DNA from: Tetmemena sp. SeJ-2015
Taxonomy: Eukaryota; Ciliophora; Spirotrichea; Sporadotrichida; Oxytrichidae
Direction of reading: 5' to 3'
Assembly: GCA_027382625.1 (NCBI GenBank)
Contig: JAJKFJ010021585.1
Coordinates: 1-64,000, forward strand
DNA length: 64,000 nucleotides
Both the position numbers and the translations under genes were made by a program. This document shows, piece by piece, positions 2,835 to 64,000 of the stretch. The notes under the pieces were generated by a model. That model was not told the origin of the DNA, did no database searches, and saw only the letters and a program-made list of their open reading frames with translations. How positions within the stretch are numbered: position 1 is the first letter of the stretch; each line of letters opens with the position of its first letter.

Positions 2835-5800
2835 ATGAAAAAATAGTAGTGGGATTTTATAAGACAGCTATCTCTCAAAGAAAAGAAGCTTTTCTTTCAA
2901 ATTGTATTAATTTTCTTAGCTACTTAAGTGTTATTATCTTCTTCACAATAAACATGTAAGTGGCTTTTGGAAATAATTTGTAATTTATGGTGTTAGGGAA
3001 TGCATTTATACGCTTTTATAATAATCTTAATAGCAAGTAAGACTCCATTTTTATTTAGGTACTAAATTAGATGAATACTACAACTCAACTTCATCTTCAT
3101 GTTAAAGTAAGTTATTAAGGGGATTTATATTTCTAAATTCATAGATTCTAATTATTCACACCCTGGAACGAGGAGACAGCAGTTAATAAACAGGGAAAAG
3201 CTGGAAGCAGTATAGGAAAAGAAACAGATCCCAGCAATAGTAGGAAAATTTGCATGAGAGTGGTTGCCCACTAAATTGGAAATATCCCTACAAAATATAA
3301 ACTAAAGCCATCTTACATAGGATAATAGTACGGTTTCTTATCTAGTACTGAATAAGTGCTGAGATTTGAAATTGATTATTATTTATATTCCCTAAATTTT
3401 ACTTTATTTTACTTTACTAATTATTCACAAGATAAAATAGACCAGATAAAAAAGAAAAAGTCTTTAGAGTTATAGATTGTTACTTTCATTTATTCTTTTT
3501 TATAAGATTTCATTTACTCATTCTGTTTATAGAATGCTGAGATGCAATATTAGGATGCACCTCTTGCTTTGAGACGAGCAAAGCAATTTATTAATTTAAT
3601 TGGAGGCGTCACTCAATTCTTCGTTTAATGCAAGAGATGTAGCGATGGACTATATCTACTCAAGAACTAAACCTATACTCCTAACTATAATATAATTTAA
3701 CTACCCAACCTTAATGACGTAATGTGTTCAAGATTAATAAAATCATTTTTAAATAAAAGATTGTCAAATTATTCACGGTTCTTATAAACTTAAAGACACT
3801 TTAATTGTATTACACTCGTTTTAAATCTATTTTATCAATGACTACACGAACGGTTCTTGCAAATGTAAGCCTAATTCTGATAGTAGTGTCTAATTGTGGT
3901 AAATTAAACTAACTCTTAAGATAGACTGTGGCGAATACTGCACCGCTTGTAACTTGCAATATGGCTGCACAGCATGTCAGGGGGAATCAGCTGGAGTAGG
4001 GTGGGTATCTGCTCTCACAAATGATCCTAAAATTTCGTTTTCGAGCACTTTCAAAGTCTGCTAGCGTTAGTTAAACTTATTTATCACATTCTCTGTTATA
4101 AATTTAATTTACTAAAATTTAATGTAATTTATCAATTGATAAATCTTTCATCAATAAAATTTAAATGAGAATCTAATATGCATTTATTTATTCTCAAATA
4201 GCTTGCGCTAATAACTAAATATATCTCTTTATGAAATTAATAAAACAAGATTTGCAAAACGTGTTCGAGCACAAACTCTTCACAGTGTTCAGTATGCTAC
4301 GATGTCGATAACACCGGGAATACTTCCTGCAGTAAGTTACTTTAGTAAATTTAAGATGTCATTTTTTCCCATATTTAAACCTAAATAGGATTAATGGATT
4401 AAATAAGTTATGAACATAGAGAAATAATGAAAATTCTATCTTCTTCTTATTATAGGCTGATATGATCTGACAACCTACACTAAATCAAGTGATTCATGCA
4501 AATAATATAAAACACACTCAGCAGGCTACAAATACTGCATACAATTTATTTATGCATTTATCTCATAAGTATACTATTCTTTACAATTTGAATGTGATGA
4601 TGCCTATTTCCTAAAAGCAAATGCAGTTTATGATAGTTCTTACAAAGTCTATCTTCCCTAATTAAAAATTAAGTAATATTTTATTCATAAGTTATGTTAA
4701 TGCACAGCATGTAAGTTTTAAACAAATGAGTGCTAGAAAGGATAATTTAAATTTAGACACTGGATCTGGTAAATGCATGATCCCTTTATCTGAAAATTCT
4801 TGTTCGCTTTGTGCTTATGGATATGGAAGTATCTAAGTTGGATCAAATAGTGTCTGCGGAAGTAAGAAATAAGTATCACATTTTTTACATCTTTAGGCTG
4901 CCAATCAGAGAATTTAAAATTGTAAATTATTGAGTATTATATTATTCACCATATCCAGAGGCTATAAGATGTTAGCTAAGTGATTTAAACACAGTGGTAA
5001 AGATTACAGGATGTAGAGATGGCTACATTATCGTTTAAAATATATTGAATAGAGTACGAAAAACATTTAAAGATGTTTTATAATAACAATGCAACGGGTT
5101 CGTGCGTGAATAAATGCCCTAGTGGTCAGTATGGCTATGCAGTATTTGATTAAAGGGGAGTAATATTAACTAGCTATTGCAGAGCCTGTAGTATCACCAA
5201 CTGCATAGAATGCGCTTCTAATGGTTAATGCATCCAGTGTGCAAAAAATTAGCTTAAATAAAATGATAAAAATTACTATCTAGATACTGGAGTTACTGTG
5301 GGGAGAGCTTCTGGAAATTGTATAGCCAGGGCTATCGGGACCTATACTAATTCTTTCTATGTAAATCCAGTGAATGCTCAGTCTGCAACTCCTGCTCAAC
5401 AGATCATAGGTACATCTGCAACAACAGCATATAACACAATATAAGATGCAATAGCAAAAGGCAAAGAAGTTGCATCTTGGTATGATAATTTAACAGTCAA
5501 ATCATAAACATTTCATCTATATTTTTATGATGATTTTTTAATTCCTGTAAATAAGAAAGCAAACTTTTTCACTTAAAACTCATTAATTAAATTATGGGTT
5601 TGAGTGATCGTTTATTTGCTGCCTGGCCCGCATGCTTTAATAGCAGAGCCTTAGAGACTTTACTACTAGCCTAGATATTATGATGGAAGCAATAATTATT
5701 TTTAATTGATTGCTAATAAAATAGTATAATGTAGGGACTTAATTCACAATAACAGCATAATATATATCATTAATTCTATTTTTATCTGGAGTGACTGTCT

Positions 5801-8800
5801 AGTATAAACTGCGAGATAAATGGTTCTTCCCAGTTGGCCCAAAGTTGACTCTTCAATATATTACTTTCGACGCCTCTGACTCTATTGTAACCCCAGATAC
5901 AGATTCTTCTAACTGCCTTACAAGTGTATCCTAATGCTGCTCCATAAATACATTAACAAAGAATAAATATCTTATTAATTTTTAAGGCTATGAGTCCAGG
6001 AGCAAATTGCTATCTTAGAGAAGAGGCGTAAGCTAAAAGTGATAATTGTAAATACTCTTTTTAGGACTGAAGATTGCAGCTAAATGGCTGCAGGTGGCAG
6101 CTTCATAAAATTTGACATGAATACTTAAAGTCTATTAACTAATCCCTAGACTTTAATTATCTCTGTAAGATTTAATTAATTTTCCTATTTATTAGTATGT
6201 AACCTTTCAAAATTTCATGTATGAATTCAGCTCCTTCTTTATTTAAAATTGTAGTTTTTTAATTCATTGAGATGAACGACTACGGAGCTATTATAAAGAT
6301 ATCCAATACTAAATTCATTAACTTAACACTTGCGGCTCTATTCTGATATAATTTTAATTTCTTAGAAATAGAACACTCAATCTTAATCGCACTAGCTCAG
6401 GCTTGACGAGCAGCTCCTCATTTTCTCAGATCTACTCAGTAAGAGTAAATTAAATAAGTTCATGATTTAATTCTGTGGCCTCTTAGATTCAAGCCTCTTA
6501 AAAGCAAGCTTTGGCATCAATGAGCAGTACTCCTTTCTCAAAAGTATGCAACTCTGTGCTTAATGGAGGAAGTTTACCTTCTTGCTTCGATCTCCAAATC
6601 AATCAAACTAAAATTTGTGTATTTTAAGACTTTATATTTCTAAATAACTTCCTTTACCTACTTTGGTGCATTCAAGAGTTAAATTATACAAATATTTATA
6701 GTTCACTAGATAGAGCTGTTTGGGTAAATCCAAGCTACGGAATGTCATATCATGGCTCTGTGGTTGATCTAGATAGCTTCCGAGGAAATATAATGCTATA
6801 CAACAACACATTCTCAAGTTGTCTTAAAAAATTAAAGTAAAGAAAAATTTATGGAATATAAATAATAATCAATTTAAAAACCAGCACTTATTACAGTACT
6901 AGTTAGTAAATCGTATAACTATCCTATGTAAGCTTAAAAAAATAATTTAAAGTATGATCCTGCAGTTTACAAACTGTCAATTCGCTTCCAAAATGAGAAA
7001 CTCAGATACGACAAATTCTATTGATGTATATCCCTCATTAGGAACAAAGACAGTCCTGCAAATGAAGAGTCTGGTCAGAATCACTTCTCACGAAAGGTCT
7101 TTATACATTTCTCATAATATGTAAGTATCAAATAACTTCATAAATTCTTGATTATTTTTCACAACTTACTGTTTTAGAGTGCAGAATTGTTCTTCTATTA
7201 AAGGATTATTCTACTTAGGAATGAGAGATAGACTGAACTTTGGTTAAAACTTCGTCTTTGGCTAAAACAATATACAAAAGAATTTCGGCTACTTCGATAC
7301 TACTATTGTTTACCTTAGCTTTGAATATAATTTTATTTGAATTTACCTGAGAATGAGAGGTAAAAGTGATCGATCAGTTTATACCACTGTACCTAACACA
7401 GTTGATGCAAATTTATTCTGCACTGGCTACCTTTTCGAAAAGAATCAGATTAACTAGAATACAGGTTGCCCTCTCTATTCAGGCGCAATAATTCAAACTG
7501 AGTGTATTGACTACAATTAGCAGAATGGTTTTATATTAATATTAGCAGCCTATAATTAATAGTAAAATGCTAAATCCGATTTAATTATTTAGCCAGATTA
7601 TGCGAACGACTCAGTGAAGTTTTAAAGTCTAGTCAATATGAAAAGCAATTATATGAGCACAAGTTACTTCTCTCCCACTCTGTCACTATCAACAATCAAA
7701 GTTTTATTTGGAACTTACACTTACTCAATAGACTTAAGGATGAATTATATTATTTTAAATATGATTAAAATTATTTCAACCAGAACAGCTTGAAGGACTT
7801 CACATCGTCCGGAGGTTTTGCAGCTATAGATTTAATAGGCATGCCCAGAGTATTTTTGCAGCACGAGTATTATGATGGAGGCGGAGATTCTATCTATATT
7901 AAATAAAGACAAAATTTAATTTTCATTTTAAACTTGATTGATTCTATGTCAGATTTAGTCTAGGCTTTTGGAAGTTCAGCTTTCACTGATTACTCTTCGC
8001 TGCCTGGCTTTAAAGACATCATGAATCTTTAGCATTTTATAAATTAGTGAATCCCTAAAATAAAAACCTATTCCCGACTTCATAAATTAGGATGATGTTG
8101 ATACTATTTTTGTAATTTCTAAATAAGTATTAGCTGGCTTGCTCAACCATAAGAATTAGAAGAACTAATTGGGTATTCATCAGGAATGTAACTGACAGCA
8201 ATACTTTTAAATTAGAGCCATAGTATGATTCGACAAGAACTAACAACTTTCTCTTCAATGATTTTTATGGCTTTCTCTACATAGATTACTTTAAGATTGT
8301 TAATTAAGATATTTATTATCACAAATTTTTAATCTCTAAGGAGTAAAAACTGATTATCTGAAGTAGATGGGAGTTCTTGTATCTATTTCGGGCTTAAATA
8401 ATTAAAAATTTTATGGCTTGTAAAACTTCGGAAGCCAGCTGGGTATCATGAAATTTTATTTATTACTAAATTCTTGGATAGTGATAGAGTAGATGTGTAT
8501 TTTAATTCTACGACTGCCACCTCTATCTGGTCTTTGCAGCTGCTGCAGATACAATTTTATCCTACAAATAACGAGCAGCTATTTCCTAATTTTTCAAACC
8601 CTTCTAATATTATACATTTATCGCGTGATTTTGTAAAATTGCAAAAATACAATCAAATTCTTTTGAGTTTAATCAAAATTAACTTTGAATCTTAATACCC
8701 TGCATTTCTTAATTTTCGTGATAAAGTCGAGAAAAATAAAATTAAAAGTATTTAGGGGAAAAGAAGGAAGGGGTACCACAAGTTCGAATAAAAAATTGGA

Positions 8801-11800
8801 AAAATTTGGAATTCTTGCTTTGCTATTTTTAGATTTAGTACACCTTTAGGGCAGTAGGTAGGACTGATAATTATTAAAATAAAAATTAAATAAGTTTGCG
8901 AAAGGGTATATAAGAAGGAAATTATCCATTACTAAAATGTGTACTGCTATGTTTATTTGGCTAATTAATCTCTTATTGGTATTAAGACTTACAGTTATAT
9001 TTCTTATAGTTGAGTTTCCTAATTTCCTGATTTATTATTTTAAATATCCCCATTACTTCAATAAAAACATTCTTAATAGATTCTTACTCTTTGAAAATGA
9101 TAGGTAAATGCATAATATCATGGTAAAGTATGTCTTTGTTAAATGAATGAATGAATATTTTATATTTTGTGTACTACTTTTAGCTGACTTAGAGCAGCTG
9201 CTACGAATGTAAAGTGCCTTGGTTTGAGTTCAACGTTGACTATGCCAATCTCTAATTATCTCTATTAGAATAAGTTAAAATAATTAGATTGATTATTCTA
9301 ATACCCCTCAATTACAAATTTCAATACGGATAGCTCAACTGGTTTACAGTAGAGCTAGTTCTTTAAATTCTGGATCTAAAAACCATATATAAATAACTTA
9401 AGAATAACTGCCACTCCATATATCATCATTTAGTTTGCCTAAATTAATAAATTATTATTATTTATATCAATTAATTAATACCTCTATCAACTAAGTAACC
9501 TTGGGGGAGCCTGATGGACGAATATTTGACTTTTAATATTTAAAGGTCGCTACCGAGAAAGAACCTGACTCATGGATTAAATTACTATATATATTGAAGG
9601 ATAAACTAGATATAAATTTACAATGTATAAAATTCTAATTATCTCACAGGCCCAAGCGATGGACTACTTGTAAAAGCTAATATTGATACCATCAATCTTA
9701 AAAAAAGCATTATATTTTAATAATTACATAATCAACTAAGGACTAAATTTAAATTATCTTGTTCATTAAAAATATAGAGCTCTGAAATTTTAGCTTTATC
9801 TTAGCACTTTTAGAGATAAATAAAGTGCTGATAAAACAGCCTCAGATTTTTCTGACCATAAAAAAAAAGTTGAATATGTGGCAGTCGAATTGACACACCG
9901 ACTACGATGGCCTCAGCCAGCAATAAATTGGAGGAGAGAGCTAAGGAAGAAGACAACAGGACAATGCAGCAGCCGCCACAGAGCACCTCTATGAGGTACC
10001 CCTAAATCAGACACCAGAAGCAGAGTGATTTTGGAACTTGAATATTCTTTTATATACTCGATTCTTTTAAATTCAAAAAATCAACCTTAAAATATAAGTA
10101 GGATCCATTTACTAGGTTTATTTAAAACAATAAAATAATAATTTAAATTTATTTAGGATAAGTTAAAGATATAATTCAAAAAATTAATTACTGTAAGACT
10201 TCTTTATAGATATAAAAAATAGGATTTCTTATTAAATCAAGTTTAAATAAAAAATTATTTATATAAATTAATAAATAAATAAATAATAAATTAATCAAGA
10301 TACTAATTTTTAAACTAACTAGGCTTTAATGTGTGCTCTAAAGTATGATAATTCTAAAGCTCTTATATATAAGTTTAAAGATCTATGAATTAATTGTTAC
10401 ATTAGAAACCATAAACTTATTAAGGTATGTAATTTTCTTAAATTATAATCTAGTTACAATTCAATTATTTAACAAATAAAATTTCTTTATAATTTCTCCC
10501 AAATTCTCTATATTGGAGAATATAATTGGTTATACCTTTTGGATTTGAATTTGACAAGATGCAAGAACTCTTGAGTTAGGCTGAATACGTTATTTTCATA
10601 TTTTCATGAAAAAAAGTGGATGACGAGGTAAAGCCAAACAACCTAAAGTAGGATCCATTTACTAGGTTTATTTAAAACAATAAAACAATAATTTAAATTT
10701 ATTTAGGATAAGTTAAAAATATAATTAAAAAAAATAATTACTTAACAAATATAATAATAAATTGTTTTCGCTTTTAATTAATATATATTTATACATTAAT
10801 TATTTTTAAGGTTTTCGCAAAACCAAGCTTAAAAGGATTCAATCGTGGAGCTGTATTAAATCCCCATAATATGTATGATAAGAAAGTGAGAATTAGACGT
10901 GTTAAATTAAATTATTATTTACAACAAAGATCAATATCACGAATTTAGAGAAAATTTTAAAGATGAAAGCTATATAATCTAATACTCAAAAAATGTTATC
11001 TATGAGAGTTCAAAGTAATAGTTGGCAAGAACACCTAAGAATGTAGATAATAAGCATAATAAAGAAGATGATATTCAATAAGGATTTAAAATAGTCAACT
11101 TCCGGCCTCCATTTTAACTAGTTATTTTAAGACTGTGTTTAAAGTTCTCTCTAAATTCTCTATATTCATCTTTGCTAGTAAAGTATTAACACAACTAATT
11201 TTCACTTTCTTATAATTCTATAGGGTTTTCGGTTTTTATTCTATGTTGAATTAATATAAATTATTTAACTTTTCCTACTAATTTTAAAAATTGAATCAGT
11301 GGGGAATCTTGAAATATCTAGCTTTACAGTGCGAGAAATGCGAACATGGGTGACTCAAAATGAGCCAGGAGGAGGCAGCTTCTTTTACTATAATTAAAAC
11401 AGAAGTTTAAAATATGGTTATAGTATTTAGTTTGAATGCAACGCTGAACAACAATAACATTTGGTGCTCACTTGCAGCAGATATGGTATCAAATGCTTCC
11501 TTTATCTATGAGGCAGTTGCCTTAATATAAAATTTTATGCAGCAAAGAAATTCTACTACGGATCAGGAGTTTATATTAATACACATGGCTAGGAACTAAA
11601 TTACATCCCAATATAATTTTTGTTATTTAAATGCTACTCTGATAGGCAACTTATTCTAGGTATGCATTCTTTCTGAAAAAGGAGCAGGACTAAGAATTGA
11701 ATTTGATAACCCTCAGGTTAAGAACAATATAACTTTTCAAAAAAATTACTTAGTAAATATGGTGAAACGCTTTTCATAATATTTTTTTTATATAAAAAAT

Positions 11801-20800: not shown

Positions 20801-23800
20801 TATCAAAAAGTTCCTTTTCTTAGTGCGGGATATCATAATTCAATATTCTTTTATATTTTATAATGCTATTTATCTATACAATTAGGAAAATACAAAAATT
20901 ATTTCTTTCAGCTTAAAAATATCGATCTTAGAATTTTTTTACTTCTCATACTTTAATAATTCAGTACTTTTATTAAAAATTTTAATTGTAAATAATTCGG
21001 AGGGGCATTTATGTTGAGGTAAACAAGTTTTTCTGATTCAGGTTCAACTTATTTCTAAAATGCTGCAGTTTACGGAGGAGTGATAAGTGATTCATTTTTT
21101 TAAAATATTTTATTTTATTGCTATTAACTCATAAATCCGAATAAAAAATACTAATTTCTATAGCAATTTTGCAAGAGAAGGAGGAGTTTTTCATCTAGCT
21201 ACAAACTCATTTCTTAATATCGAATCCTCAAATCTTTACAAGAACTATGCTTTCCTATAAGCAGGAGTTTTCAATATAATCACAGGTTCATATACAAACA
21301 TTTAGAAATATTTTTTAAAAACATTTTAGCTTGCGAAGTCTACTAAAACTAGGCTACTGAGAATTCTGTTCTCAACGTACTCGAATCATCCTCATCTTAA
21401 AATATTACCATTCAAAATTCTTAATTCTCCAGTATAATAATATTTAATAGGAAAATTTATTCTCTAAAGGAATATTTTTCCCTATAACTAAGCCACTATT
21501 AATACGTTCTCAATCGTTAAAGTTATTTTTAAGGAAATGTGCTAATTGAAAATAGTTAATTCAGACTAAACTTGGCAACTCAAAGAAGCAAAACCATTTT
21601 CGTTGGACTTTCTTACTTGAAAATATACAAATCAATTTTTGTGGGAGATTCGAGTTACATTGACTCTTAGGCTTAATAAATTAGTTCTGAAGACAAGACT
21701 CAAGGAACTTTCATCTATGCTATTATAAATGTTAAACTTCAAATTTATGAATCTGAATTCAGATATGGATAAGCTTAATATGGAGGAGCAATTTATAATT
21801 CATTTTGCATTTATGTGAATGGTGATTCCTCAATAGACATCTATTCTTCAAATTTCATTTAAAACTTAGCCTCTTTCCAAGGAGGTGCAATATATGCTCT
21901 AGGCTTCAAAAGTTTTGAAATTAGGGAAAAATCAAAATTTGTATCAAATCAAGCTTCAAATGAAGAAGAAAATTTTAAATGATATACTTTAAATGGAGGA
22001 GATGACATATATGTGTCTAATACTTTTTAAAGAGAATATTATTTTTACTGAAAATCAATTTAACCTTACAAAAGTGTAATTCTAAAATCCTTAAGCCTTT
22101 CTCTCTATATATGTGAGTAAAGCAGCAGTAATATTTTAAGATGTGACAATGAGGTAAATTGGGACTAAATCAAGATATCAACAATTTTAAGGATCAGCTC
22201 TCAAGTGTTTAGATTGTAAAAGCCTATAAATCAATAGATCAACCTTTGAAAATTGCAAAGGAGTTCAAGGGGGAATTATTTACATAGAAGAGACTTACTC
22301 AAATAGAGATAGCAACTATATATCGTTAATTCAGGGCTAAAATTTAGATTACAAATACTAACTAACTCTATCGGTCTTTTCTAATTCTAGAGGATAAGAA
22401 GGAGGAGCTTTGCATTTAAATAATCCTTAGAGTATCCTAATCAGTAACTGTACTTTTTCAAACAACTCAGCATAAAATTAACATGTTTAATTTATTAAGA
22501 AGGAACAGGTGGAGCTATTTATTTGGACTGTGACCCAACAGTATTAGATTGCTTAGTCTATATATCCAATTATACAAAGTTCATTGGGAATTTTGCCTCT
22601 TCAAAAGGAGGAGCAATTCATTGGGAAGAATTGGAGCCTGTGATCGACATGAAGACTGTAAAATTTGAAAATAATCAGGCCCTGTTCTACGGGAATGACA
22701 TATCTTGCTTTGTCTAAAAGATTTCAAGAATAGATGCTAATCAGTATTCTTAAGTCATGGAATCTTTCAACTTAAGAATCCTCATAAAATCTATTTTAAG
22801 ATATTAATCTTAGCTGAGATTAATTAAACAGAAAATTCAGTATCAAACCTTTAGAGTGGTGGAATTTTACCAGATTTTTACTTAAGTCTAGTGGATAAGT
22901 ACGGACAAATTGTAAAAACAGAATCTGCAAGCAAAATTGTTGTAACTATAGAAGTTGATAATCCTTTAAATATCTCCTAATATATCTACCCAGCGACGAT
23001 AGATGGAAAAAATCAATTTGAAGTTGAGTTTGGTTTAGCAGCTATAAAGCAAATGCAATTTACTGGTACCCCTGGCATGAAATATAGATTGAAACTTACT
23101 TCAACTGCCATTGACTATTCAAAGCCATCTAATAAGGAATACCTCGATTCTTTAGAAGGAAATGAAAAAGATATTGCTCTTGATATAGAAATCTAACTAA
23201 GATTATGCTAGATAGGAGAATATTTTACTCTGTCTGGATAATGCTTAACCTGCACGAGTGGGTCTAGTTATTTTTTGGAATAAATGCTATCCCCAGGTAA
23301 TTGCAAATAATGCCCTTCAGATAAAGCAGTTTGCTATGGAGGAGCATAAATTGGTCCAAAGCCTGGCTATTGGAGAAGTAGTAACATTTCTGTTAACTTT
23401 ATTAAGTGTAATTATTACTATGCATGCTTAGGAATGATAGAGCCAGATTTTAATCCTATTGGAACTTGCATGGAAGGATTTTAAGGAGTTATATGTGCAG
23501 ACTGCAAAGTTGGTTTCTCAAAATAAGGTGACTACAAATGTGCAAGATGTCCTGAGAAAAATACTTTTTTATTTACGAATTCAGTGAGGATCCTCTTTAT
23601 TTTCATAGTCATAATGCTTTTGGTCATTTTTATAGTTAGATAGACTATTCTAGGAGCAAAATAGAGCAAAGAGATATCTAATATTTTTGTGAAAATAATG
23701 ATGAATCATCTATAACTTGTCATGTTAACAGCTTCTTTCAATCTGAGTTGGCCAATATCTGTCATAAATTTCTTTCAAGGAATTTAACCAGTTTCACAAA

Positions 23801-26334: not shown

Positions 26335-26456
26335 AACTCTGGCTACTCCCTCCCATATAAAACTTCTCGCTTTGGAACCATAGTTCCTTACTCTTTTTCA
26401 ATCCCAACACCGAGAGACAGAGAAGAAAAAAAAAATTCAAGGAAAATAGTCTGTGT

Positions 26457-26603
26457 TTAAATATACTTCATGACGGTGGGCTTTCGCGGTGACGTGGCAC
26501 AACTGATCAAGGAGTTACGCCTGTGAATTACTTTAAATCGATTAAGTATTGTATGCCAGTTGGGGGTTCTTAATTCCTAACTATTATTATTAAATATACT
26601 TCA
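26457..26603 (+). repeat. 14-bp direct repeats around a GC-richer insert
   Basis: TTAAATATACTTCA at 26457-26470 and again at 26590-26603. The ~120 bp between is clearly richer in G and C than the flanks. Fits a pointer- or target-duplication-flanked insertion, but lies outside any recognised reading frame. Confidence 0.7.
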
Positions 26604-26779
26604 GGTTATTTGTTTCGCTTTTTTCCATTTATTATTCTTTCTATACTTTTTTGGGGCTATAAATAGGTAGGGAGCCAGGGAGGAACAGCGATTCAATGGA
26701 TATAGGCAAGGTTCCATCTACCCGAATCTGCTTATAAATTATTATAATCGGGATATTCATAATCGTCACCGCACTCCAA

Positions 26780-28306: not shown

Positions 28307-28334
28307 GGGGGGGGGACGGAAGTGCACACCCCCC
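28307..28334 (+). repeat. left terminal inverted repeat
   Basis: 28-bp G9...C6 end; contains the self-complementary core GTGCAC. Confidence 0.92.
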
Positions 28335-51800: not shown

Positions 51801-53500
51801 TTATTCTTGCCATCTCCACATATTTCAACGCAAACACACTTAGAGCTCTCTCTTTCTTGTCTTCTTCATCTTCATCATCATCGTTATCTTAGTGCTCAGG
51901 CTCTCCCTCTCAAGAGGAGCGAAAAAGCTTTGCTTTTTCTGAAAGCTCTTAACTCAACTTTACTTTTACTTCCTCATCATCAAACATTTCTGCGTATCTC
52001 TGCAATGCAAACTAATCGCTTTGTCAAAAGTGTTCAAACACTCAAAAGACAACTCCAGTTGTCAAAGCTCCTCTTGAGAGGGAGAGCCTGAGCACTAAGA
52101 TAACGATGATGATGAAGATGAAGAAGACAAGAAAGAGAGAGCTCTAAGTGTGTTTGCGTTGAAATATGTGGAGATGGCAAGAATAACGACATTAAAAAAT
52201 TATTAAAGTTCATATATATAGGTTGTTTTAATTTATCACATTTAAATCTGAGTCTCCTAGTTCGAGCTTGCACTCCCTTCTGCTCTAGAGTAAGATAGTG
52301 TATTTCTAGAAAAAACCTTCGATTCTGCATTAAATTCTTAGGTATAATCATATCCAAATACTGAGTTAATATTAATTAAAAAGCCTTTAATTTTAGTTGG
52401 TGGACTTTTATTTGCAGATCGCAGATGAATCAGCATAAGTGGACATATTGTATTTACCTAATATAGTTAAGCTCCTTAGGCTAATCTTACTGCAAGAATT
52501 ATCTCCACTCTAATCTAGATCTTTGCAAGCCACGCAATTAGAAGGATCAGAGGAAGAACATGTGTTGCAAATACTTGGATTGGAGCAGCCTGTAATGATT
52601 TAGATTAGGATTCTCGAAAAGATAATATTTTGAATTCATTATTTAATTAAACTGATGCATGTAATAATAGAAGTAAATAAAAAAGAGTGAATTTAAAGTT
52701 CAAATGCGACAGCTTAGCAAAGCTAATTTAATAAATATTAAATTATGGAGATTCTATAAAATTCGATAACATAACACTGGCTAAATTATATTTAGTGCTC
52801 ACTACTCTTTTTGTGATCAAATTAAATGCTGCAGCTTGTAAGTAATTCTTTTGCTAATCAATTTGAATTTAAACATTTTAATAAAACTTATAAAGAATAG
52901 ATTTATGAAGTTATTATAAGTACCAAAGTTAAAATTGTTAGTTTTTTATGTTAATTCAATTATTTTTAAGAAATTAAGTTAAATTAATCAGTTTTAAATG
53001 ATGAATACCATTTAGAAATTATTTAAAGTTAAAAATTCAGCATACTACATACTTGATGCTCATTAATTATTTAAACTCCTTCATGACTTTAAATGAGACT
53101 TCTAAGGTAGATGTGTCGTTAAATTTTGCGCTCTTAAATAAAATTTCCAAATATAAATATTTTTAATATTTGAAGCTGAATAAATGATTTAAATATGCTC
53201 TTAATAACTGCCACTTTTCAGATCTTTAATACTTTAATTTATAAACTTAATTGGCTTAATGCTTGAATTCTTAGCTATAATTTAGGCAGTGGATTTGACC
53301 AATTTTATAATTCTTCATCATAAAACTGTGAGAGTAAGTAATATGATGGTTTATGCATAAACCTATTTAGAATGTGAAAATGCTATTTTTGGCTGTTCAT
53401 CTTGTACAGAAATCAAATTTATATTCTTAAATTAATCAAAGTAGCCATATATAAGTAGGATATCAATAGAAAAAATAAGAAAATTCTTTTTCATATTCAT
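30806..53500 (-). CDS. gene D: giant Pmp-like beta-helix transmembrane protein, paralogue of A
   Basis: Same domain order as A on the opposite strand. The start is at the ATG at 53500-53498 (a second ATG sits two codons on), giving MNMKKNFLIFSIDILLIYGY, a signal peptide. Cysteine-rich blocks run 52600-51300 (CNTCSSSDPSNCVACKD, GECTIPSSETSCEIC, GCRDGFVDNSTGSCTNQC). The middle region runs 51200-47250 (HKLRDKYSFEIFG, FDASDSIITPDTDTSGC). Beta-helix repeats run about 46100-34650. The sheet/stalk (SLVDKYGQII, GPKPGYWRSS, CLGMIEPDYDPIGTC) and helices run 34560-32300. A long charged tail (FLDQEEEDELEEQS) ends at TGA 30808-30806. Interrupted by many inserts; those with clear pointers are listed. The protein is diverged from A/B but clearly homologous over its length. 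Intactness after IES removal is not proven. Confidence 0.75.
33164..33172 (-). other. gene D micro-IES, pointer GCTAT, 9 bp
   Basis: On the minus strand GCTAT occurs at 33172-33168 and again at 33163-33159. The 9 bp between contain TTGA, placing TGA in frame. Removal reads DNSQRAMTQKNYLLNRKG, in step with A after the helix ending in QYM. Confidence 0.65.
33278..33309 (-). other. gene D IES, pointer AAAATAA, 32 bp
   Basis: AAAATAA on the minus strand at 33309-33303 and 33277-33271. Removal joins SPKKI to TSTLVILLFLIHP, matching A (IRSKIMATCVVLLFLVHP), and corrects the frame. Confidence 0.88.
33442..33457 (-). other. gene D micro-IES, pointer GAA, 16 bp
   Basis: GAA on the minus strand at 33457-33455 and 33441-33439. 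The insert contains an in-frame TGA. Removal restores the frame into NDYFRIYFIKLILFA. A GA pointer with a 10-bp insert also fits. Confidence 0.6.
33904..33915 (-). other. gene D micro-IES, pointer GAT, 12 bp
   Basis: GAT on the minus strand at 33915-33913 and 33903-33901. The 12-bp insert carries an in-frame TGA. Removal gives ACRYYPACLGMIEP, matching A (KCNYYYACLGMIEP). Confidence 0.8.
33992..34038 (-). other. gene D IES, pointer AAT, 47 bp
   Basis: AAT on the minus strand at 34038-34036 and 33991-33989. Removal gives EKAICN-GGSKIGPKPGYW, matching uninterrupted A (DKAVCYGGAQIGPKPGYW). Confidence 0.88.
38412..38729 (+). CDS. unrecognised ORF antisense to gene D
   Basis: A 105-codon plus-strand frame in the ciliate code (ATG 38412, TGA 38727-38729) in a GC-richer patch of about 480 bp. 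The product includes RASTTRHQEINLVPLPLRL and SYGPYYTKIGANFGG, which look protein-like but match nothing I recognise. The minus strand here shows no gene D repeat. Best guess is an element or foreign fragment lying inside an IES of gene D. Confidence 0.35.
43150..43950. other. non-coding interruption of gene D, partly GC-richer
   Basis: No beta-helix repeats on the minus strand. About 43330-43870 is less AT-rich than the flanks and has no recognisable frame. Contains a short hairpin near 43800 (CATCTCCATATTCTC / GATATGGAGATTC). Probably a large IES or decayed insertion. Confidence 0.4.
46570..46985 (+). repeat. R2 repeat copy 3 (inside gene D)
   Basis: Similar over about 400 bp to 12550-12945 in the same plus orientation, although gene D reads on the minus strand. 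Landmarks: AAATGGAGG, CTGCAGCTTGTTCGATAG, GAGTTTCTTCT, and the CATTTTAATTTAATAATTAA end. Confidence 0.75.
47449..47670 (-). other. gene D IES, 12-bp pointer AAATGCAATTAA, 222 bp, made largely of R1
   Basis: AAATGCAATTAA occurs at 47437-47448 and 47659-47670. The DNA between is almost entirely the R1 repeat and has stops including TGA on the minus strand. Removal keeps an open frame (INITNFTFNSISFS-YQLHLNNMGVG). A 12-bp target-site duplication around an R1 insertion would look the same. Confidence 0.8.
47461..47657 (+). repeat. R1 repeat copy 3 (most complete)
   Basis: Reference copy of R1, matching 3195-3391 in reverse complement and 6853-6933 directly. Confidence 0.88.
49870..50120. other. 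GC-richer non-coding insert in gene D
   Basis: About 250 bp less AT-rich than its flanks. No domain motif on the minus strand, and no pointer pair recognised. Likely germline-limited. Confidence 0.35.
51639..52346. repeat. large foldback palindrome inside gene D
   Basis: Left arm 51639-51920 and right arm 52067-52346 are near-perfect reverse complements (about 280 bp each, a few mismatches and indels) around a 146-bp loop. The loop holds smaller hairpins (GAAAAAGC/GCTTTTTC, GTGTTCAAACAC, GACAAC/GTTGTC). Arms are GC-richer than the surroundings and carry antiparallel short frames by symmetry. It lies between gene D codons for SSAICKQ and CAKC, where A and B have a 42-44 bp IES. Foldback transposon or inverted duplication inside an IES. 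Confidence 0.9.
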
Positions 53501-53939
53501 ACTCTATTAAATTAATGTTTTGGTCTTTTTTTTAAAAGAAGGACACCAAATCGTCTCTCCTTTTAATCAGATTTCATATTTTTATCTTGACCCTGATGTG
53601 TTCAGTAAATCGAAGCTTTAGATATATTTGGATGATAAATATGTTATTATTTAAATCCATCGAGTAAGTTAGAAAAATATAAGTCTAAAAGTAAGATTTA
53701 ATTCAAAGTAAATTTTACATAGATCAAGAGTAATCACAAAATTAATGAAAAATAATAAAGCAATCCCATATAAATAAAAAATTAAATGCATCAAAGAAAA
53801 TGAAAGATTCTATATAAAGAGGATGGAAAACAAAAACTAATTTTTGCAAACTTTTTATCAAAATATTTTTTATAATGTCACAATTTGGATTTTCTTTAAA
53901 TTGTATTTCTTCGATTTATTCATATCCTTTCTATATTAT

Positions 53940-56120: not shown

Positions 56121-56639
56121 GATATATTGTTTTTATTTCACTTAAAAAATTTTCAGATCCACTTTTCTTGAAATTTATCTTTGAATAATTTTTTTTAAGT
56201 TGCTATCACTTTATTTTGACTGACTGATGAATTCCTCTTCTAGTATTTAATATAATAATCGACTATGAATTGTTGTTGTGAATTTAGATTATCTTAATTT
56301 TGTCCAATTTAAAATAACTGTAATCCAATTAAACTTTACTCTTGAAGTTTTATGTATGAGAAATAACTCCAATTGCTTTTCCATCAAATATAAAAAATAA
56401 TTTCTCCATACATTTTTATTAGATAATTTATTTTGACTTGAGAAAATAATTCGAATGCGAATAGCTATAATTTGAAAATATAAGGACTCTTTTAAAAACT
56501 AATAATTTATATCCTCAAACTCTCATGTTTGAATAATAATTAAATATAACAAATGCTAAAGATAAAAAGCATTAAGACTCATAAATAAATTTAAATGGAA
56601 AACTGTTCTTCATACTGATCTAGCTGAATCTTCGTAGGT

Positions 56640-56990
56640 AAACAACTGGAGGGCATATAAGGAGGACAAGAAATTAAAATAAAGAGCATCCATTTGTCAG
56701 ATGCCTTGAAGATCAAATAAAGTAAGTAAAGATTATAATACAGTCAAGGAACTTGGCTTATCTTGTATTAGCACATTCTGAATTCCAATACCAGATGCAG
56801 TGAGCAAGTTGTAAGACCGTCCAGATAATATTTCTTAATCGATTTTCGAAAAAGAAAGCTAGCTTGTAAAGCTATAAATCCACATTTTGTTCATCTAGCA
56901 AATAAAGGATTTCAATAAATATGACTTCTATATTTAATGTTCTAAAGCAAGCTCTGAGAAAGATTGAATTGACTGGGAGGGAGATTTGAT
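56640..56990 (+). CDS. possible short coding fragment
   Basis: Two neighbouring open pieces in the ciliate code with protein-like content: KEHPFVRCLEDQIKQVK ... AHSEFQYQMQ, then after a frame shift FEKESQLVKLQIHILFIQQ ... KYDFYIQCSKASSEKD. Not recognised, not obviously part of the A/B/D family. May be an isolated MDS. Confidence 0.3.
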
Positions 56991-57620
56991 TTGATTTGCC
57001 ATTTTTTTATTAAAAAAGATCTCTTAGCAGAGAAGTAGGCATTTGGTACTGTATTTATCTAATAATAAATACATAATTATAAATTTCTTAAAAACTACTT
57101 TTTTATCCTAAATAGTTGTAAATTTATTTAAATTCTATGTATCTTTTCATTTGTAAACATCAGTAAGATATTTAAGATGGATATTTAAAGCACAATCATA
57201 AGCGAATAGATTTTTAGAACTTGAATTAATCTCTAAAAAGAAGAGATCAAATTTAAGATGTGATAGTTTATATACTTTGATTTAGAGCAAGTAAGCCATA
57301 GATGGCAGAGAAGTTATTTTATTTAGCGTTTAATCACGTATTCTTTATTAACTAGTATTACATATACAGAAGGAGGATGAAATTTTAAATTATAGAGATT
57401 TCATTAATAAATTCCTTACCTTATAAAAACGTTTAAAAAAATTGAGCAAATCTATCCTTTTAATCTTGATATGATAATTATAGTTAAAGCAGTGGGCTCA
57501 TTATATATAGAAACTTTTATATTTGTTATACTAGTTAAATGAAAATATTTAAGTGTTAACCTTAACCTAATTTAATTGATATTTCTTTAACTATAATAAA
57601 CTTCAAAAAGATTAATATAC
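56991..57620. other. AT-rich 5' flank of gene B
   Basis: No open frame or motif seen. The last ~40 bp before the ATG (ATAACTAA..., ...ACATG) resemble the equivalent bases before gene A, so the duplicated block includes some upstream DNA. Confidence 0.45.
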
Positions 57621-60600
57621 ATGAAAAAATAGTAGTGTATTTTGAGAGGGAGCATGCTCCTCAAAAATAGGAAGATTTTCTTTGCAACATTTATAATTTA
57701 CTTAGCTACATTAATGCAACTATCTTCTGCACAATAAATTTGTAAGTGGCTTTGATGAATGATCTTTTATTTTGTGGTGCCAAGAAATCAATTTTAACAA
57801 TTATAAAATGCCCATTATCCTGAAAGACTCCATTTTATTTAGGTACGAAAATAGATGAGTACTACAATTCCACCTCATCATCTTGTTAGAGTAAGTACCA
57901 AAAGGAGAATTTGGAAGTGATTTGCAAATTCTTTTAAGATAATAGGCTGGATTTTTTTTGAGATCTTTTTTGAAAATTCCATTGTCTAATATAATTAAGT
58001 TAATAATCTAACGTTAACTTTAAGAGATGCACAATAAAGAAATAGGGCATAAATATTCTAACGAAAATCGATTGATTATGTTTTGCCTCATCTTTATTGG
58101 GATATTTACTCGTTATGACTTAATGTCCTTGCTCTTTGTGTTACCCCCTTAGAGGTGACCTTGTTTACTAATCTTTTGGTGAATAGTGTAGAGTGTCTAA
58201 TTGAAGGAAGCGAGGGTAATGAAGAGCCCTGTAGTTTTGCGAGAAGAATATTACTATCTTGGTACTGAATCTGCATTTTCTGCGGAGATAGTATTTCGGC
58301 TCGACTGAGGCATTATTCTGCATGATATCATCTGAAGATGACACCGAACATCGTGAACTTTCCTTGATCAAACAGGAGGCCTAGGTCATTATTTCCTGCC
58401 CCTAAGTCTAGCCATTTACAACTGAGATCCTTTTTGGTTTTGCTTTGTCCTGTAAGAGTCAATGATATCAAAGTGGGTGCTAGTGAGTGGGTTCTAGTTT
58501 ATTCGAGAGGTCATGATTCCTCCAGCCAGATGAAGTAACAGCCACAGGTGATGTATTGTGTTGATACATGCTCCCAGAGGTGGATATTCTAGGAACAAAC
58601 TTGCTTTTTCAATTCTTTGGTGTTTACTTCTAAATTCTGTCTTAAAATATATTACTTAAATTTTATTGACTTCTTTTTGCATTAAATTCTGCCCTATACT
58701 GGCAAAGATAAATTTCATAAGAAAAGACAAATTCTTAAAAGCTATAGATAACTTTATGCTCTTAAACTTATCATAAGATTTTATTTACTCATTCTGTTTA
58801 TAGAATGCTGAGATGCAATATTAGGATGCTCTTCTTGCTTTGAGACAAGCAAAGCAATTAATTAATTAAATTGGAGGCATCACTCAATTCTTCGTTTAAT
58901 GCAAAAGGTGTAGCGATGGACTATACCTACTCAAAAATCAAACCTACTCTCCTAACTTAAAATATAAATCTAACTACCCTACCCTAATGACGTATTGCGT
59001 TCAAGATTAATAAAACTATTTCAATTAATTTGAAGATTGCTAAACTATTCACGGTTCTTATAAACTTAAAGACGCTTAAGTATTTTACACTCGCTATATA
59101 TCTAATTTTATCAATGACTACACAAACGGTTCGTGTAAATGTAAGCCTTACTCTGATAATAGAGCCAGTCATTGTTGAATAAAACTAACTCTTAAGATAG
59201 ACTGTGGCGAATACTGCACCGCTTGTAACTTGCAATATGGTTGCACAGCTTGTCAAGGGGAAGCAGCTGGAGTAGGGTGGGTCTCAGCTCTCACAAATGA
59301 TCCCACTATTTCGTTTTCGAGGACTTTTAAAGTCTGCCAGCGTAAGTTAAGCTTATTTATCACCTTCTCTGTTATAAATTTAACTTAAGAAAATTAAATG
59401 CTTATTATCTATAGATAAATTTTTCATCAATGAATTTTAAATGAGATTCATTTATGCATTCATTTATTCTCAAATAGCGTGCGCTAATAACTAAAATTAG
59501 ATCTTTTTATGAAATAAATATAACAAGATTTGCAAAACATGCTCCAGCTCAAATTCTTCACAGTGTTCAGTATGCTATGATGTAGATAACACCGGGAATA
59601 CTTCCTGCAGTAAGTAACTATAGTAAATTAAAATAGTCAACTTTTTTATCCATAGTTAAACTTAATTATTCTAAGCGGATAAATATGTTATAATCCTGGA
59701 GGTATAGCTTTATCTCTTATTTTATTATAGGCTGATATGACCAGACAACCTACACTAAATCAAGTGATCCATGCAAATAATACAAAACAGACTCAGCAGG
59801 CTACAAATACTGCATACAATTGATTTATGCATTTATCTCATAAGTATATTATTCTTTAGCAAATTAAATGTGATGATGGCTATTTCCTAAAAGCAAATGC
59901 AGTTTATGATAGTATTTACAAAGTCTTTCTTCCCTAATTAAACATAAAGTAATATTTTATTCATAAGTTATGTTAATGCACAGCATGTAAGATTTAAACA
60001 AATGAGGGCTAGAAAGGATAATTTCAATTTAGACACTGGACCTGGTAAATGTATGATCCCTTTATCTGAGAATTCTTGCTCTCTTTGTGCTTATGGATAT
60101 GGACTTATATAAGTTGGATCAAATAGTGTGTGCGGAAGTAAGAAATAAGTATCATATTTGTTACATCTTTAGGCTGTCAATCAGAGAATTTAAATTGTTA
60201 AATTAAGTAAGAATTATATAATTCACCATATCCAGAGGCTATAAGATGTTAACTTAGTGATCTAAACACGGTGGTAAAGATTACAGGATGTAGAGATGGC
60301 TACGTTATCATATAAGTTATATTTAATAGAGAATGAAACACATATAAAGGAATTTATAATAACAATGCAACGGGTTTGTGCGTGAATAAATGTCCAAGTG
60401 GTCAGTATGGCTATGCAGTATTTGATTAAAGGGGAGTCAATATAAACAAGCTATTGCTTAGCCTGTAGCATCACTAATTGCGTAGAATGCGCTTCTAATG
60501 GTTAATGCATCCAGTGTGCAAAAAATTAGCATAAATATAAGTTAATTAAATTACTATCTGGATACTGGAGCAGCTGTCGGTAAAGCATCAGGAAATTGTC

Positions 60601-63600
60601 TTGCAAAGGGTATTGGAACCTACAATACTACTTACTATGTAAATCCAGTGAATGGCCAGACTGCAACTCCTGCTCAACAGCTTGTTGGCACAACTATTGC
60701 CACTTCATTTAACACGATATAAGATGCTCTTGCAAGAGGAAAAGAGATTGCATCTTGGTATGATAACATGACAGTAAATATAATATATATATAGCTATTT
60801 TTGGTATCAGGAAATATTGGTGTTTATAAAATTAATTAAAGCTTACCATTAAAGCTATTTTCATTTATTTAATGGTTTTGAGTAGTCATTTTATTGTTAC
60901 CGGGCCCGCATGCTCTTATAGCTGAGCCTTAAAGACTCTACTACTAACCGAGATTCTACGATGGAAGCAATAATTAATTTGATTATAACTCCAAATTTAT
61001 ACATATAATGTGGGAACCTAATTCTCAATAGCGGCTTCATAAGCATTTCAAATTCTATTTTATCTGGAGTAACAGTGTAGTATAAACTGCGTGATAAATG
61101 GTTCTTCACAGTGGGTGCAAAGTTGACTCTCCAAAATATTATCTTCGAAGCCTCTGACTCAATTATAACCCCAGATACTGATCCAAGTAAATGCCTCTCT
61201 AGTACCTCCTAATGCTGCTCAATCAATCTACTATCAAAGAATTATTACTTTTTTATTAAATTTTGAGAATATTAGTCCAGAGGCGACTTGCTATCTAAGA
61301 GAAGAGGCGTAAGCTTTCCTGCTTTTTATGAATATATATAGGACGGAAGATTGCAGCCAAATGGTTGCAGGAGGCAGCTTCATTAAATTTGACATGAATT
61401 CTCAAAGTCAAATGACTTCTCCCTAAACTCTAATTATCCAGGTAAGACTACAGTAATATTGAAATTCATCTTGAGTTTTTAGTCTGTTACCTTTCAAAAT
61501 TTCATGTATGAATTCAACTCCTTCAAAAATGTAAATCCTTGTTTTTTAAATTCATTGAGATGAACGACTACGGAGCTATTATCAAGATAAGCAACTCTAA
61601 ATTCATTAACTTCAACACTTGCGGCTCAATTCTTTTACGTTTTTATTTTCTTCTTAGAAATAGAACTCTCAACCTTAATCGCTCAATCTCAGGTATGACT
61701 ATCAGTTCTACATTTTCTCAGATCTACTCAGCGAGAGTAAATTAAATAAGTTTATGATTTAATTCTGTGGCTTCTTAGATTCAAGCCTCTTAAAAGCAAG
61801 CATTGGCAAAACTGAACAGCACTCCTTTCTAAAAAATCTGCAACTCTGTGCTTGATGGAGGGAGTTTACCTTCTTGCTTCGATCTCCAAATCAATCAAAC
61901 TCAAATATATGAATATGTATATAGACTTTGACTTTTGAAATAACTACTTTTACCTACTTTGGTGCATTTAAGAGTTAACTGAATTTTTTTTAAAAAAAGT
62001 TAGTTGTCTAGAGCTATTTGGGTAAATCCAAGCTACAGAATGACTTATCATGGCTCTGTGGTTGATCTAGATAGCTTTCGAGGAAATATAATGCTATACA
62101 ACAACACATTCTAAAGTAAACTTAGACAATAAATTTTAAAGTATGATCCTGCAGTTCACAAACTGTCAATTCGCTTCCAAAATGAGAAACTCTGATACGA
62201 CAAATTCTATCGATATGTATCCCTCATTAGGAACAAAGACAGTCCTACAAATGAAGAGCTTGGTCAGAATTACTACCCACGAGAGGTCTTTATACATTTC
62301 TCATAACACGTAAGTATATCTACAAATTACTGTTTTAGAGTGCAGAGCTCTTCTTCCATAAAAGGATTATTCTATCTGGGAATGAGAGACAGACTGAACT
62401 TTGCTTAAAACTTTGTCTTTGGCTAAAACATTATACAAAAGAATTTCGGTTACTTCGATGCTACAGTCGTTTACCTTTAGCATTGATTATGATATTGATT
62501 AAGTTTACCTGAGAATGAGAGGTAAAAGTGATAGATCAGTTTATACCACTGTGCCTAACTCAGTTGTTGCAAATTTATTCTGTACTGGCTATCTTTTCGA
62601 AAAGAACCAAATCAACTAGAATACAGGATGCCCTCTATATTCAGGTGCGATCATTCAAACTGAGTGCCTAGACTACAATTAGAAGAATAGTTTTATCTTT
62701 AAATCAGCAGTCTTTAATAAACTTAAAATGCTTAATTTCGACTTATTTATTTAGCCAGATTTTGCGAATGACTCATTAAAGTTTTAAAGTGTAGCCAATA
62801 TGAAAAGTGATTACTTAAGCGTTAGCTACTTCTCTCCCGATCTATCAGCCTCTCAGACTAAGGTTTTATTTGGAACTTACACTTACTCTGTCGACCTAAG
62901 GATGAATTAAATGATTATTAAAATGATTAGAATTATTTCAACCAGAACAGCATGACGGACTTCACATCGTCCGGAGGCTTTGCAGCTATAGACTTAAATG
63001 GCATGCCCAGAGTATTTTTGCAGCATGAGTATTATAATGGCGGTGGAGATTCTCTATATTAAATATAAGATAAAAACTCTTTTCCATTTTAAACTTGATT
63101 CTATAAAAGAGCTAGTGTATTCTTTTGGAAGCTCGGCATTTTCTGATTATGCATCACTTCCAGGCTTTAAGGACATAATGAATACTTTAAGTTTTAATAA
63201 ATTTCTTATATGAACTCCTAAAATAGAGACTTATACCCCACTTCTTAAATTTAATATTTCAAAGAATTACTTTGAAATCTATAAATATGGATTATCTAGC
63301 GTGCTCTACCATAAGAATTAGAAGAACTAATTGGGTATTTATTAGGAATGTTACTGACAGCAATACATTTAAAGTAGAGCCATATTACGATTCCTCAAGA
63401 ACTAATAACTTCCTCTTCAATGATTTCTATGGCAATCTTTACATAGACTACTTTAAGATTGTTAATTAAGACATTAATTATCATATATTTTAATCTCTTA
63501 GGAGCAAAATCAGATTATATGAGGCAGATGGGGGTTTTAGTTTCGATATCTGGCTCAAAATAAATATCTTTTATGGCTTGTAAAACTTCGGAAGCCAGCT

Positions 63601-64000
63601 GGGTATCATGAAATTTACGGTATTAAATTTATAAATTCTTGGATAGTGATAGAGTAGATGTGTATTTTAATTCTACGACTGCCACCTCTACCTGGTCTTT
63701 GCAGCTGCTGTAGATCCAATTCTATCCTACGAATAACGAGTAGCTATTTCCTAATTTTTCAAACCCTTCTAATATCTTTGCAAAGTATGTCTTTGTCATA
63801 TATAAAGTTACTGTTGTTTAATTTTTGTGAATTACCTTTAGGTGACTAAGAGTAGCTGCTACGAGTGCAAGGCCCCTTGGTTTGAGTTCAATTGCGACTA
63901 CATCTTTCTCTAATAATTAATTCCACGTTTCAATATATAAATAATAAGTGATTATTCTAATACCCCACAATTACCTATTTCAACGTAGATAGCCCAGTGG
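57621..64000 (+). CDS. gene B: close paralogue of gene A, 5' part only
   Basis: Starts MKKQQCILRGS, then a hydrophobic leader (IFFATFIIYLATLMQLSSA), and follows gene A block by block: NAEMQYQDALLALRQAKQ, CGEYCTACNLQYGCTAC, ICKTCSSSNSSQC, CSLCAYGYG, LLPGPHALIAEPQRLYYQP, RMRGKSDRSVYTTVP, GGFAAIDL, FGSQLGIMKF, SCYECKAPWFEFN. Exons are much more similar to A than IESs are. Two odd points: an in-frame TGA at 59176-59178 and a +1 slip near 60437 relative to A. Both could be unrecognised micro-IESs or could mark decay. Runs off the window before the beta-helix region. Confidence 0.8.
57742..57842 (+). other. gene B intron 1 (or GTA-pointer IES), 101 bp
   Basis: GTAAGT...TTTAG with GTA at both edges; junction Q-I-C-T-K-I-D-E. 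Counterpart of 2956-3058. Confidence 0.75.
57887..58800 (+). other. gene B IES, pointer TAGA, 914 bp
   Basis: TAGA at 57887-57890 and 58801-58804; removal reads SSSC-QNAEMQYQDALLA. Twice as long as the A counterpart because of a GC-richer ~550-bp insert (about 58080-58640) without a recognisable gene. Confidence 0.85.
58953..58970 (+). other. gene B micro-IES, pointer TAACT, 18 bp
   Basis: TAACT at 58953-58957 and 58971-58975. Removal gives TYSPN-YPTLMTY, equal to A after its 16-bp removal. Confidence 0.75.
59344..59524 (+). other. gene B IES, pointer AAG, 181 bp
   Basis: AAG at 59344-59346 and 59525-59527; removal reads VCQRK-ICKTCSSS. Confidence 0.75.
59621..59735 (+). other. gene B IES (TA pointer) or intron, 115 bp
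   Basis: TA at 59621-59622 and 59736-59737; removal reads SCSKQLYDQTTY. The alternative GT-AG intron 59610-59730 leaves TGA in frame. Confidence 0.55.
59818..59861 (+). other. gene B IES, pointer AATT, 44 bp
   Basis: AATT at 59818-59821 and 59862-59865; removal joins YCIQL to KCDDGYFLKAN. Confidence 0.8.
59935..59973 (+). other. gene B IES, pointer TAAT, 39 bp
   Basis: TAAT at 59935-59938 and 59974-59977; removal joins VFLP to QCTACK. Same pointer and length as in A. Confidence 0.8.
59989..60013 (+). other. gene B IES, pointer AAG, 25 bp
   Basis: AAG at 59989-59991 and 60014-60016; removal joins TACK to DNFNLDTG. Confidence 0.82.
60138..60172 (+). other. gene B GT-AG intron, 35 bp
   Basis: GTAAGA...CTTTAG; splicing reads C-G-S-C-Q-S-E, as in A. 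Confidence 0.75.
60306..60356 (+). other. gene B probable IES, pointer TA, 51 bp
   Basis: TA at 60306-60307 and 60357-60358; removal reads CRDGYV-NNNATGLC and removes an in-frame TGA. Confidence 0.6.
60773..60880 (+). other. gene B IES, pointer AGT, 108 bp
   Basis: AGT at 60773-60775 and 60881-60883; removal joins WYDNMT to VVILLLPGPHA. Same length as in A although the interiors have diverged. Confidence 0.9.
61238..61265 (+). other. gene B IES, pointer AGAAT, 28 bp
   Basis: AGAAT at 61238-61242 and 61266-61270; removal reads CCSINLLSK-NISPEATCY. Confidence 0.9.
61903..61937 (+). other. gene B IES, pointer AAATA, 35 bp
   Basis: AAATA at 61903-61907 and 61938-61942; removal joins INQTQ to ITTFTYFGAF and avoids an in-frame TGA. 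Confidence 0.88.
61973..61997 (+). other. gene B IES, pointer AGTTA, 25 bp
   Basis: AGTTA at 61973-61977 and 61998-62002; removal joins GAFKS to QLSRAIWVNPSY. Confidence 0.88.
62112..62136 (+). other. gene B IES, pointer TAAAGTA, 25 bp
   Basis: TAAAGTA at 62112-62118 and 62137-62143; removal joins YNNTFQ to SMILQFTNCQF. Confidence 0.92.
62310..62338 (+). other. gene B GT-AG intron, 29 bp
   Basis: GTAAGT...TTTTAG; splicing reads SHNT-VQSSSSIKG. Unusually short. Confidence 0.65.
62469..62502 (+). other. gene B IES, pointer GTTTACCT, 34 bp
   Basis: The 8-bp repeat at 62469-62476 and 62503-62510; removal joins VVYL to RMRGKSD. Confidence 0.93.
62905..62930 (+). other. gene B IES, pointer AATTA, 26 bp
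   Basis: AATTA at 62905-62909 and 62931-62935; removal joins DLRMNY to FNQNSMTDFTSSGG. Confidence 0.9.
63048..63096 (+). other. gene B IES, pointer GATTCT, 49 bp
   Basis: GATTCT at 63048-63053 and 63097-63102; removal joins GGGDSI to KELVYSFGSSAF and removes an in-frame TGA. Confidence 0.92.
63178..63209 (+). other. gene B IES, pointer ATGAA, 32 bp
   Basis: ATGAA at 63178-63182 and 63210-63214; removal joins FKDIMN to SQNRDLYPTSQI and removes an in-frame TGA. Confidence 0.9.
63611..63632 (+). other. gene B IES, pointer AAATT, 22 bp
   Basis: AAATT at 63611-63615 and 63633-63637; removal joins GIMKF to LDSDRVDVYFNS. Confidence 0.85.
63795..63841 (+). other. gene B GT-AG intron, 47 bp
   Basis: Starts GTCATA and ends CTTTAG; splicing reads V-F-V-T-K-S-S-C-Y-E-C. 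Counterpart of 9138-9183. Confidence 0.65.

Follow-up and report, generated by a model that had tools for sequence, protein, structure and literature searches.

The stretch of DNA analysed here (the window: 64,000 nucleotides, G000:C2662:1-64000, from a contig of 83,963 bp) is very probably hypotrich-type micronuclear DNA whose genes carry pointer-flanked internal eliminated sequences (IESs), some of the inserts being spliceosomal introns. Genes on such a germline contig would still be broken by short AT-rich IESs. During macronuclear development each IES would be cut from the DNA between two pointer copies, one of which stays, and the rarer GT-AG inserts would remain in the DNA and be removed from RNA by splicing. 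A pointer-flanked IES system of this kind is already well known. The window was assigned to it because exact pointers without GT-AG alternatives were found in genes for tubulin and EF-1alpha from its own assembly (146.2 Mb, 5,213 contigs); the genetic code and the 84 kb contig are as expected for such DNA, and so, probably, is a C4A4 motif. An earlier sequence-only reading had also named a micronuclear contig with IESs, and the same evidence supports it.

Insert boundaries were fixed using proteins conserved across eukaryotes. Three inserts interrupt an alpha-tubulin gene (C1854, L048): one of 50 bp with pointer ATT, one of 69 bp with GTCGAT and one of 50 bp with ACT. A tubulin-like gene (C3185, L047) contained a 37 bp insert with pointer CACAAT. 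Inserts of 109 and 49 bp (pointers GTT and ACT) were located in an EF-1alpha gene (C2370, L049), and inserts of 51 and 65 bp (pointer ACT in both) in a second EF-1alpha gene (C3322, L050), where the 51 bp insert shares its codon with C2370. These eight, among 11 well-aligned tubulin and EF-1alpha inserts, have an exact pointer of 3-6 bp, and GT-AG removal is impossible at every pointer placement. Insert shuffling gave P values of 0.0012-0.049 for each of the eight (product 7e-15 if independent, which fails for the two EF-1alpha inserts at one shared codon). The other three, all in L047, were a 56 bp GT-AG intron, a 36 bp insert readable equally as an intron or with pointer GGTA, and a 51 bp insert whose repeat at the computed place is 1 bp only. 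The count of 11 excludes locus L052, six inserts from a noisy 5' portion of L050 and 269 bp misaligned at the end of L047. The 5' part of L050 is homopolymer-rich and probably an assembly artefact.

TAA and TAG occur within the tubulin and actin reading frames, and an in-frame TGA follows tubulin, both EF-1alpha copies and actin. The code reads TAA and TAG as Gln and TGA as stop, with the exception of an in-frame TGA in the family of genes A and B described below. In the window, 372 open reading frames (ORFs) of at least 100 aa were counted with TAA and TAG as Gln, a figure inflated by the single stop codon left under that reading, versus five with the standard code. The motif C4A4C4A4C4, which we take to be of the spirotrich type, has 67 exact, partly overlapping matches in the assembly, nine of them forming a contig's first 20 bases. 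The match of one contig starting with C4A4 (C298) on C1815 is broken by a 6.5 kb insert that opens with C4A4 repeats; an ATT is shared, and the insert presumably resembles telomere-bearing elements (TBEs). Several genes lie together on the single 84 kb contig of the window; if macronuclear chromosomes are gene-sized, this would not be expected of them.

Within the window, genes A and B (Table 1) are paralogues interrupted at the same codons, as the sequence-only reading had stated. Inserts were resolved at 24 places per copy, comprising 17 AT-rich, repeat-flanked inserts and seven GT-AG introns. The earlier statement that dozens of IESs can be read over 2835-64000 is not confirmed as worded: the parse covered A from 3.5 to 8.0 kb, its counterpart in B, and a site at 24066, and genes C and D, a third family copy and both ends of A and B lay outside it. 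The intervals of A outside the resolved blocks are 3797-3911, 5021-5081, 5151-5177, 5491-5609, 5755-5787, 5959-5992 and 7521-7598, together with the sequence before 3533 and after 8024. The 17 pointer-type inserts measure 5-134 bp in A, with direct repeats of 3-8 bp in both copies, and were settled by combining repeats, frame and paralogue proteins; paralogues C3362 and C1928 are without IES3 and IES4. Judged by sequence, these 17 inserts would be excised at the DNA level during development.

Because the boundaries in this set were chosen using repeats, its repeat lengths are not independent evidence, and equal protein lengths in A and B with matching junction residues provide a more independent check. 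After the 24 excisions the A/B blocks measured 73/73, 221/221, 23/23, 96/96, 37/37, 367/368 and 115/115 aa. The resolved A protein amounts to 932 aa in seven blocks, and its sole stop, in both copies, is the in-frame TGA after intron b. The earlier claim that removal restores the paralogous protein stands as regards colinearity. A and B are recent duplicates (their longest ungapped repeats were 78-95% identical in a self-comparison of the window); their inserts are therefore partly conserved, and boundaries can slide. Pairwise dynamic programming of A against B did not fix the boundaries, as the inserts themselves are conserved between the copies. Two candidates were also given up: a 22 bp GGAT-flanked insert at 4740-4761 in favour of intron c, and a CAGAG repeat at 4906-4955 which would delete residues kept in paralogues.

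The chance level of short repeats was measured on 39 gaps between trusted exon cores, counting repeats that stood in frame at corresponding places of A and B; the control relations were complement, reverse, reverse complement and A/T swap. Several results weigh against the micronuclear assignment. Repeats of 4 bp were found in 27 of 39 gaps (controls 20, 27, 28 and 20), repeats of 5 bp in 11 (controls 8, 5, 10 and 9) and repeats of 6 bp in six (controls 2, 2, 6 and 3), and the comparison of pointers with pseudo-pointers over the 39 gaps gave P 0.064. After a distant-protein-guided alignment had placed GT-AG boundaries in 16 of 68 inserts (CA-TC control 1), the remaining 52 had a mean repeat of 2.37 versus 2.10 in the control (P 0.20); neither of these two tests reached significance. 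Seven of the 24 A/B inserts are introns with boundary repeats of 0-2 bp. An actin gene (C2293) runs through 368 codons without an insert, which speaks against dense IESs; IESs are on this account unevenly distributed. No insert-free copy of A was found in the assembly for the 1.4 kb of A searched, and no IES-free match was found for the initial 6 kb of contigs C298 and C586, two of the nine telomere-starting contigs, in which the largest gaps were 9 and 6 bp, the 6.5 kb insert aside. In the sequence fetched, the 6.5 kb element had the C4A4 motif at its left end only. When the 6 bp count was restricted to gaps of at most 80 bp, repeats were present in six of 35 (controls 1, 0, 4 and 2). Chance repeats are described as plentiful in spirotrich genes (PMC1805493). 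Short pointer repeats in A and B alone are no proof of IESs, and the sequence-only claim that every insert is bounded by a 2-8 bp repeat was not confirmed as it stood: seven of the inserts are introns, and short repeats are at control level.

Introns were searched for with a GTAAG, GTTAG or GTATG donor and a YAG acceptor that shared codon and phase between A and B. Strict signals were present in six of the 39 gaps (seven with a stop allowed), with 0, 0 and 0 of 39 in three strict controls; with looser signals the real count was still six, and the three controls gave 1, 0 and 3. Comparisons within the family used seven aligned copies (A, B, C1509, C263, C1937, C3362 and C1928), of which C263 and C1937 resemble alleles; the third copy in the window, at 53-56 kb on the forward strand, aligned poorly and was left out.

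The site at 24066 lies inside the 578-codon frame of gene C. Contig C851 matches the window at 98.4% over 18188-24071 and at 92.0% over 24066-25000, the match ending after 25000, and is 38 bp longer than the window at 24066, the added sequence having TAGTAT on either side. When read by eye, a paralogue at about 80.5 kb of C2662 has an AGTAT-flanked insert at the equivalent site; pointer excision of either insert yields HPSIV, as in the window, and GT-AG splicing yields HPNSIV. Since the window reads HPSIV and not HPNSIV, position 24066 is the exact product of pointer removal. Either the window has a germline allele lacking the insert, or a macronuclear junction has been taken into the assembly here. 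The drop in identity at 24071 fits a template switch, and a haplotype switch is possible.

The alternative that survives best, and is itself improbable, is that the ciliate has long somatic chromosomes of the ordinary kind and that every insert is an RNA intron, in some cases a non-canonical one. The seven GTAAG or GTTAG..TAG introns, each of identical phase in A and B, accord with it, as does the C851 insert, which by eye also reads as a 35-nt GT-AG intron. They are outweighed by the eight conserved-gene inserts, by IES6 and IES14, which contain no GT at all, by several inserts of merely 5-18 bp, and by the HPSIV product at 24066. Splicing of all inserts by GT-AG, which the sequence-only reading had named as a refutation, is not supported by these inserts.

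It is less probable still that decayed pseudogene copies or assembly noise created the inserts. The in-frame TGA in A and B could be so explained, and noisy stretches do occur elsewhere (the poly-G run of C2662 and the homopolymers of C3322). Against this, the ratio of nonsynonymous to synonymous substitution rates (dN/dS) between A and B, calculated on exon cores chosen partly for similarity, was 0.104 for the 158 codons ahead of the TGA and 0.155 for the 948 codons beyond it, and the haplotype contig C4683 matches the first 10 kb of the window at 98.7% identity with no gap of at least 6 bp before position 10,000. Paramecium and Tetrahymena IESs are likewise germline inserts eliminated developmentally, and Paramecium-like TA-bounded IESs would also be short, AT-rich and intragenic, but that origin is scarcely credible here, as the sequence-only reading had maintained: the pointers ACT, GTCGAT, GTT, AAGATT and CACAAT are not TA boundaries, the C4A4 motif is presumably spirotrich, and, unlike the boundaries in both genera, those found here lie within codons and consist of repeats of 3-8 bp that vary in sequence.

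The micronuclear, pointer-flanked interpretation agrees with the non-scrambled IESs of the hypotrichs Oxytricha trifallax and Tetmemena sp., which likewise lie within genes, are short and AT-rich, and are bounded by short direct repeats. It differs from those systems in that no scrambling or inversion was found in the seven resolved A/B blocks, whose segments are in linear order, in that one actin gene is uninterrupted, and in that excision in A and B is something we infer. Hypotrich relatives share IES positions but for the most part not pointer sequences (PMC9797194), and most conserved IESs sit in paralogues (PMC10901763). PMC9797194 also gives 48 complete TBEs for the Tetmemena sp. micronuclear assembly, to which the few C4A4 motifs here may be likened.

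Directly after intron b, A has an in-frame TGA at 4458-4460, and B has one at the equivalent codon. By reading, the same TGA is present in C4683, C1509, C263 and C1937, and the codon is CAA in C3362 and C1928; C1937 and C1928 have additional TGAs where Q or R would be. The dN/dS of 0.155 indicates that coding constraint persists downstream of the TGA. At the codon of intron d, a GT-AG intron is present in five copies, and C1928 and C3362 carry inserts of 18 and 20 bp with GAGTT and GAG repeats, whose excision by GT-AG would, by reading, break the frame. These observations can be joined in one tentative and rather doubtful proposal: that the codon is cleared by splicing in A, B, C1509, C263 and C1937 and by pointer excision in C1928 and C3362, that the 24066 insert carries both signals in frame, that introns and IESs are in live interchange, and that TGA is not always a stop. 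Spirotrich intron/IES interconversion (PMC1805493, PMC9797194) is alike in that introns and pointer inserts occupy one codon, an insert, here that of 24066, can be removed in frame by either route, and chance repeats are common. The published cases lie between species, whereas those here are among paralogues of one assembly.

Self-comparison of the window also located related sequence at 48.8-51.5 kb (reverse strand) and a second gene pair, C at 15.2-25.6 kb (forward) and D at 32.3-42.4 kb (reverse). Pfam searches with 20 window ORFs gave two matches only, Glyco_transf_7N and DUF7630, both under the curated cut-off, and a search with the joined A protein retained 0 of 3695 candidates at E 0.001. 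The window and C4683 begin with an identical 127 bp (ATA)n (1-127 in each), probably an assembly k-mer edge and suggestive of SPAdes run with k 127; for the Tetmemena sp. micronuclear assembly, SPAdes was used with k up to 127 (PMC9797194). Beyond the window, at about 79.3-79.55 kb of C2662 (L043), a long poly-G run stands beside a duplicated stretch and is probably an assembly artefact. A large inverted repeat was noted at 51639-51920 and 52067-52346, with arms of 209 nt that are 96% complementary and of 62 nt that are 100% complementary. A dispersed repeat of about 230 bp lies at 3195-3424, 6824-6949 and 47428-47657, and IES12 in A contains part of it; a first look at the assembly gave 1103 candidates, and the 40 scored, the query included, had 81-100% identity.

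Table 1. Positions in the window of the genes, introns, IESs and empty site; lengths and repeats are those of A, with B in brackets
Feature	Position	Strand	Description	Basis
Gene A	2788..9324	+	Large Cys-rich protein gene, interrupted; resolved 3533 to 8024 only	A/B alignment and exon parse
Gene B	57574..64000	+	Paralogue of A, same insert positions; continues past window end	A/B alignment
Intron a	4066..4201	+	GTTAGT..AAATAG	GT-AG in all 7 aligned family copies
Intron b	4332..4455	+	GTAAGT..TTATAG, then in-frame TGA	Found only with stop allowed
Intron c	4711..4756	+	GTAAGT..ATTTAG	Intron signal search, A/B parse
Intron d	4862..4896	+	GTAAGA..CTTTAG	Intron signal search, A/B and paralogue parse
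Intron e	6028..6064	+	GTAAGC..TTTTAG	Intron signal search, A/B parse
Intron f	6165..6195	+	GTAAGA..TATTAG	Intron signal search, A/B parse
Intron g	7121..7177	+	GTAAGT..TTTTAG, 57 nt (29 nt)	Intron signal search, A/B parse
IES1	3682..3697	+	16 bp, TAACTA (58952-58969, CTAACT)	A/B parse
IES2	3730..3756	+	27 bp, AAGATT (59003-59032, AAGATT)	A/B parse
IES3	4213..4243	+	31 bp, AAC (ATAAC); TCT or AAATCT close by in other paralogues	A/B and paralogue parse
IES4	4540..4581	+	42 bp, TACAATTT (CAA)	A/B and paralogue parse
IES5	4912..4943	+	32 bp, ATT (AATT)	A/B parse
IES6	5244..5267	+	24 bp, AAAAATTA (AAATTA)	A/B parse
IES7	5692..5725	+	34 bp, ATAAT (ATAAT)	A/B parse
IES8	6226..6262	+	37 bp, AATTCA (AATTCA)	A/B parse
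IES16, candidate	6318..6322	+	5 bp TTAAC (6 bp, repeat AAC)	Picked as frame demands
IES9	6341..6358	+	18 bp, TTCT (TTCTT)	A/B parse
IES17	6448..6468	+	21 bp, AATT (AATT)	A/B parse
IES10	6611..6641	+	31 bp, AAAT (AAATA)	A/B parse
IES11	6677..6699	+	23 bp, AGTT (AGTTA)	A/B parse
IES12	6816..6949	+	134 bp, AAGT (25 bp, TAAAGTA)	A/B parse
IES13	7309..7341	+	33 bp, TTTACCT (GTTTACCT)	A/B parse
IES14	7743..7768	+	26 bp, AATTAT (GAATTA)	A/B parse
IES15	7886..7939	+	54 bp, GATTCTAT (GATTCT)	A/B parse
Gene C exon	22699..24435	+	578 open codons spanning the empty site	ORF scan, C851 comparison
Empty site	24066..24071	+	Single TAGTAT, empty site of 38 bp insert on C851	C851 comparison

A raw germline contig can be recognised without macronuclear reads by means of paralogues and conserved genes, from which IESs and introns are largely separable, short pointers being no proof by themselves. 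The codon at which some paralogues have an intron and others a pointer-type insert is a concrete place to test intron/IES interchange. If the tentative joint proposal is true, the conserved TGA, followed as it is by constrained coding sequence, would show that this ciliate does not always read TGA as a stop.

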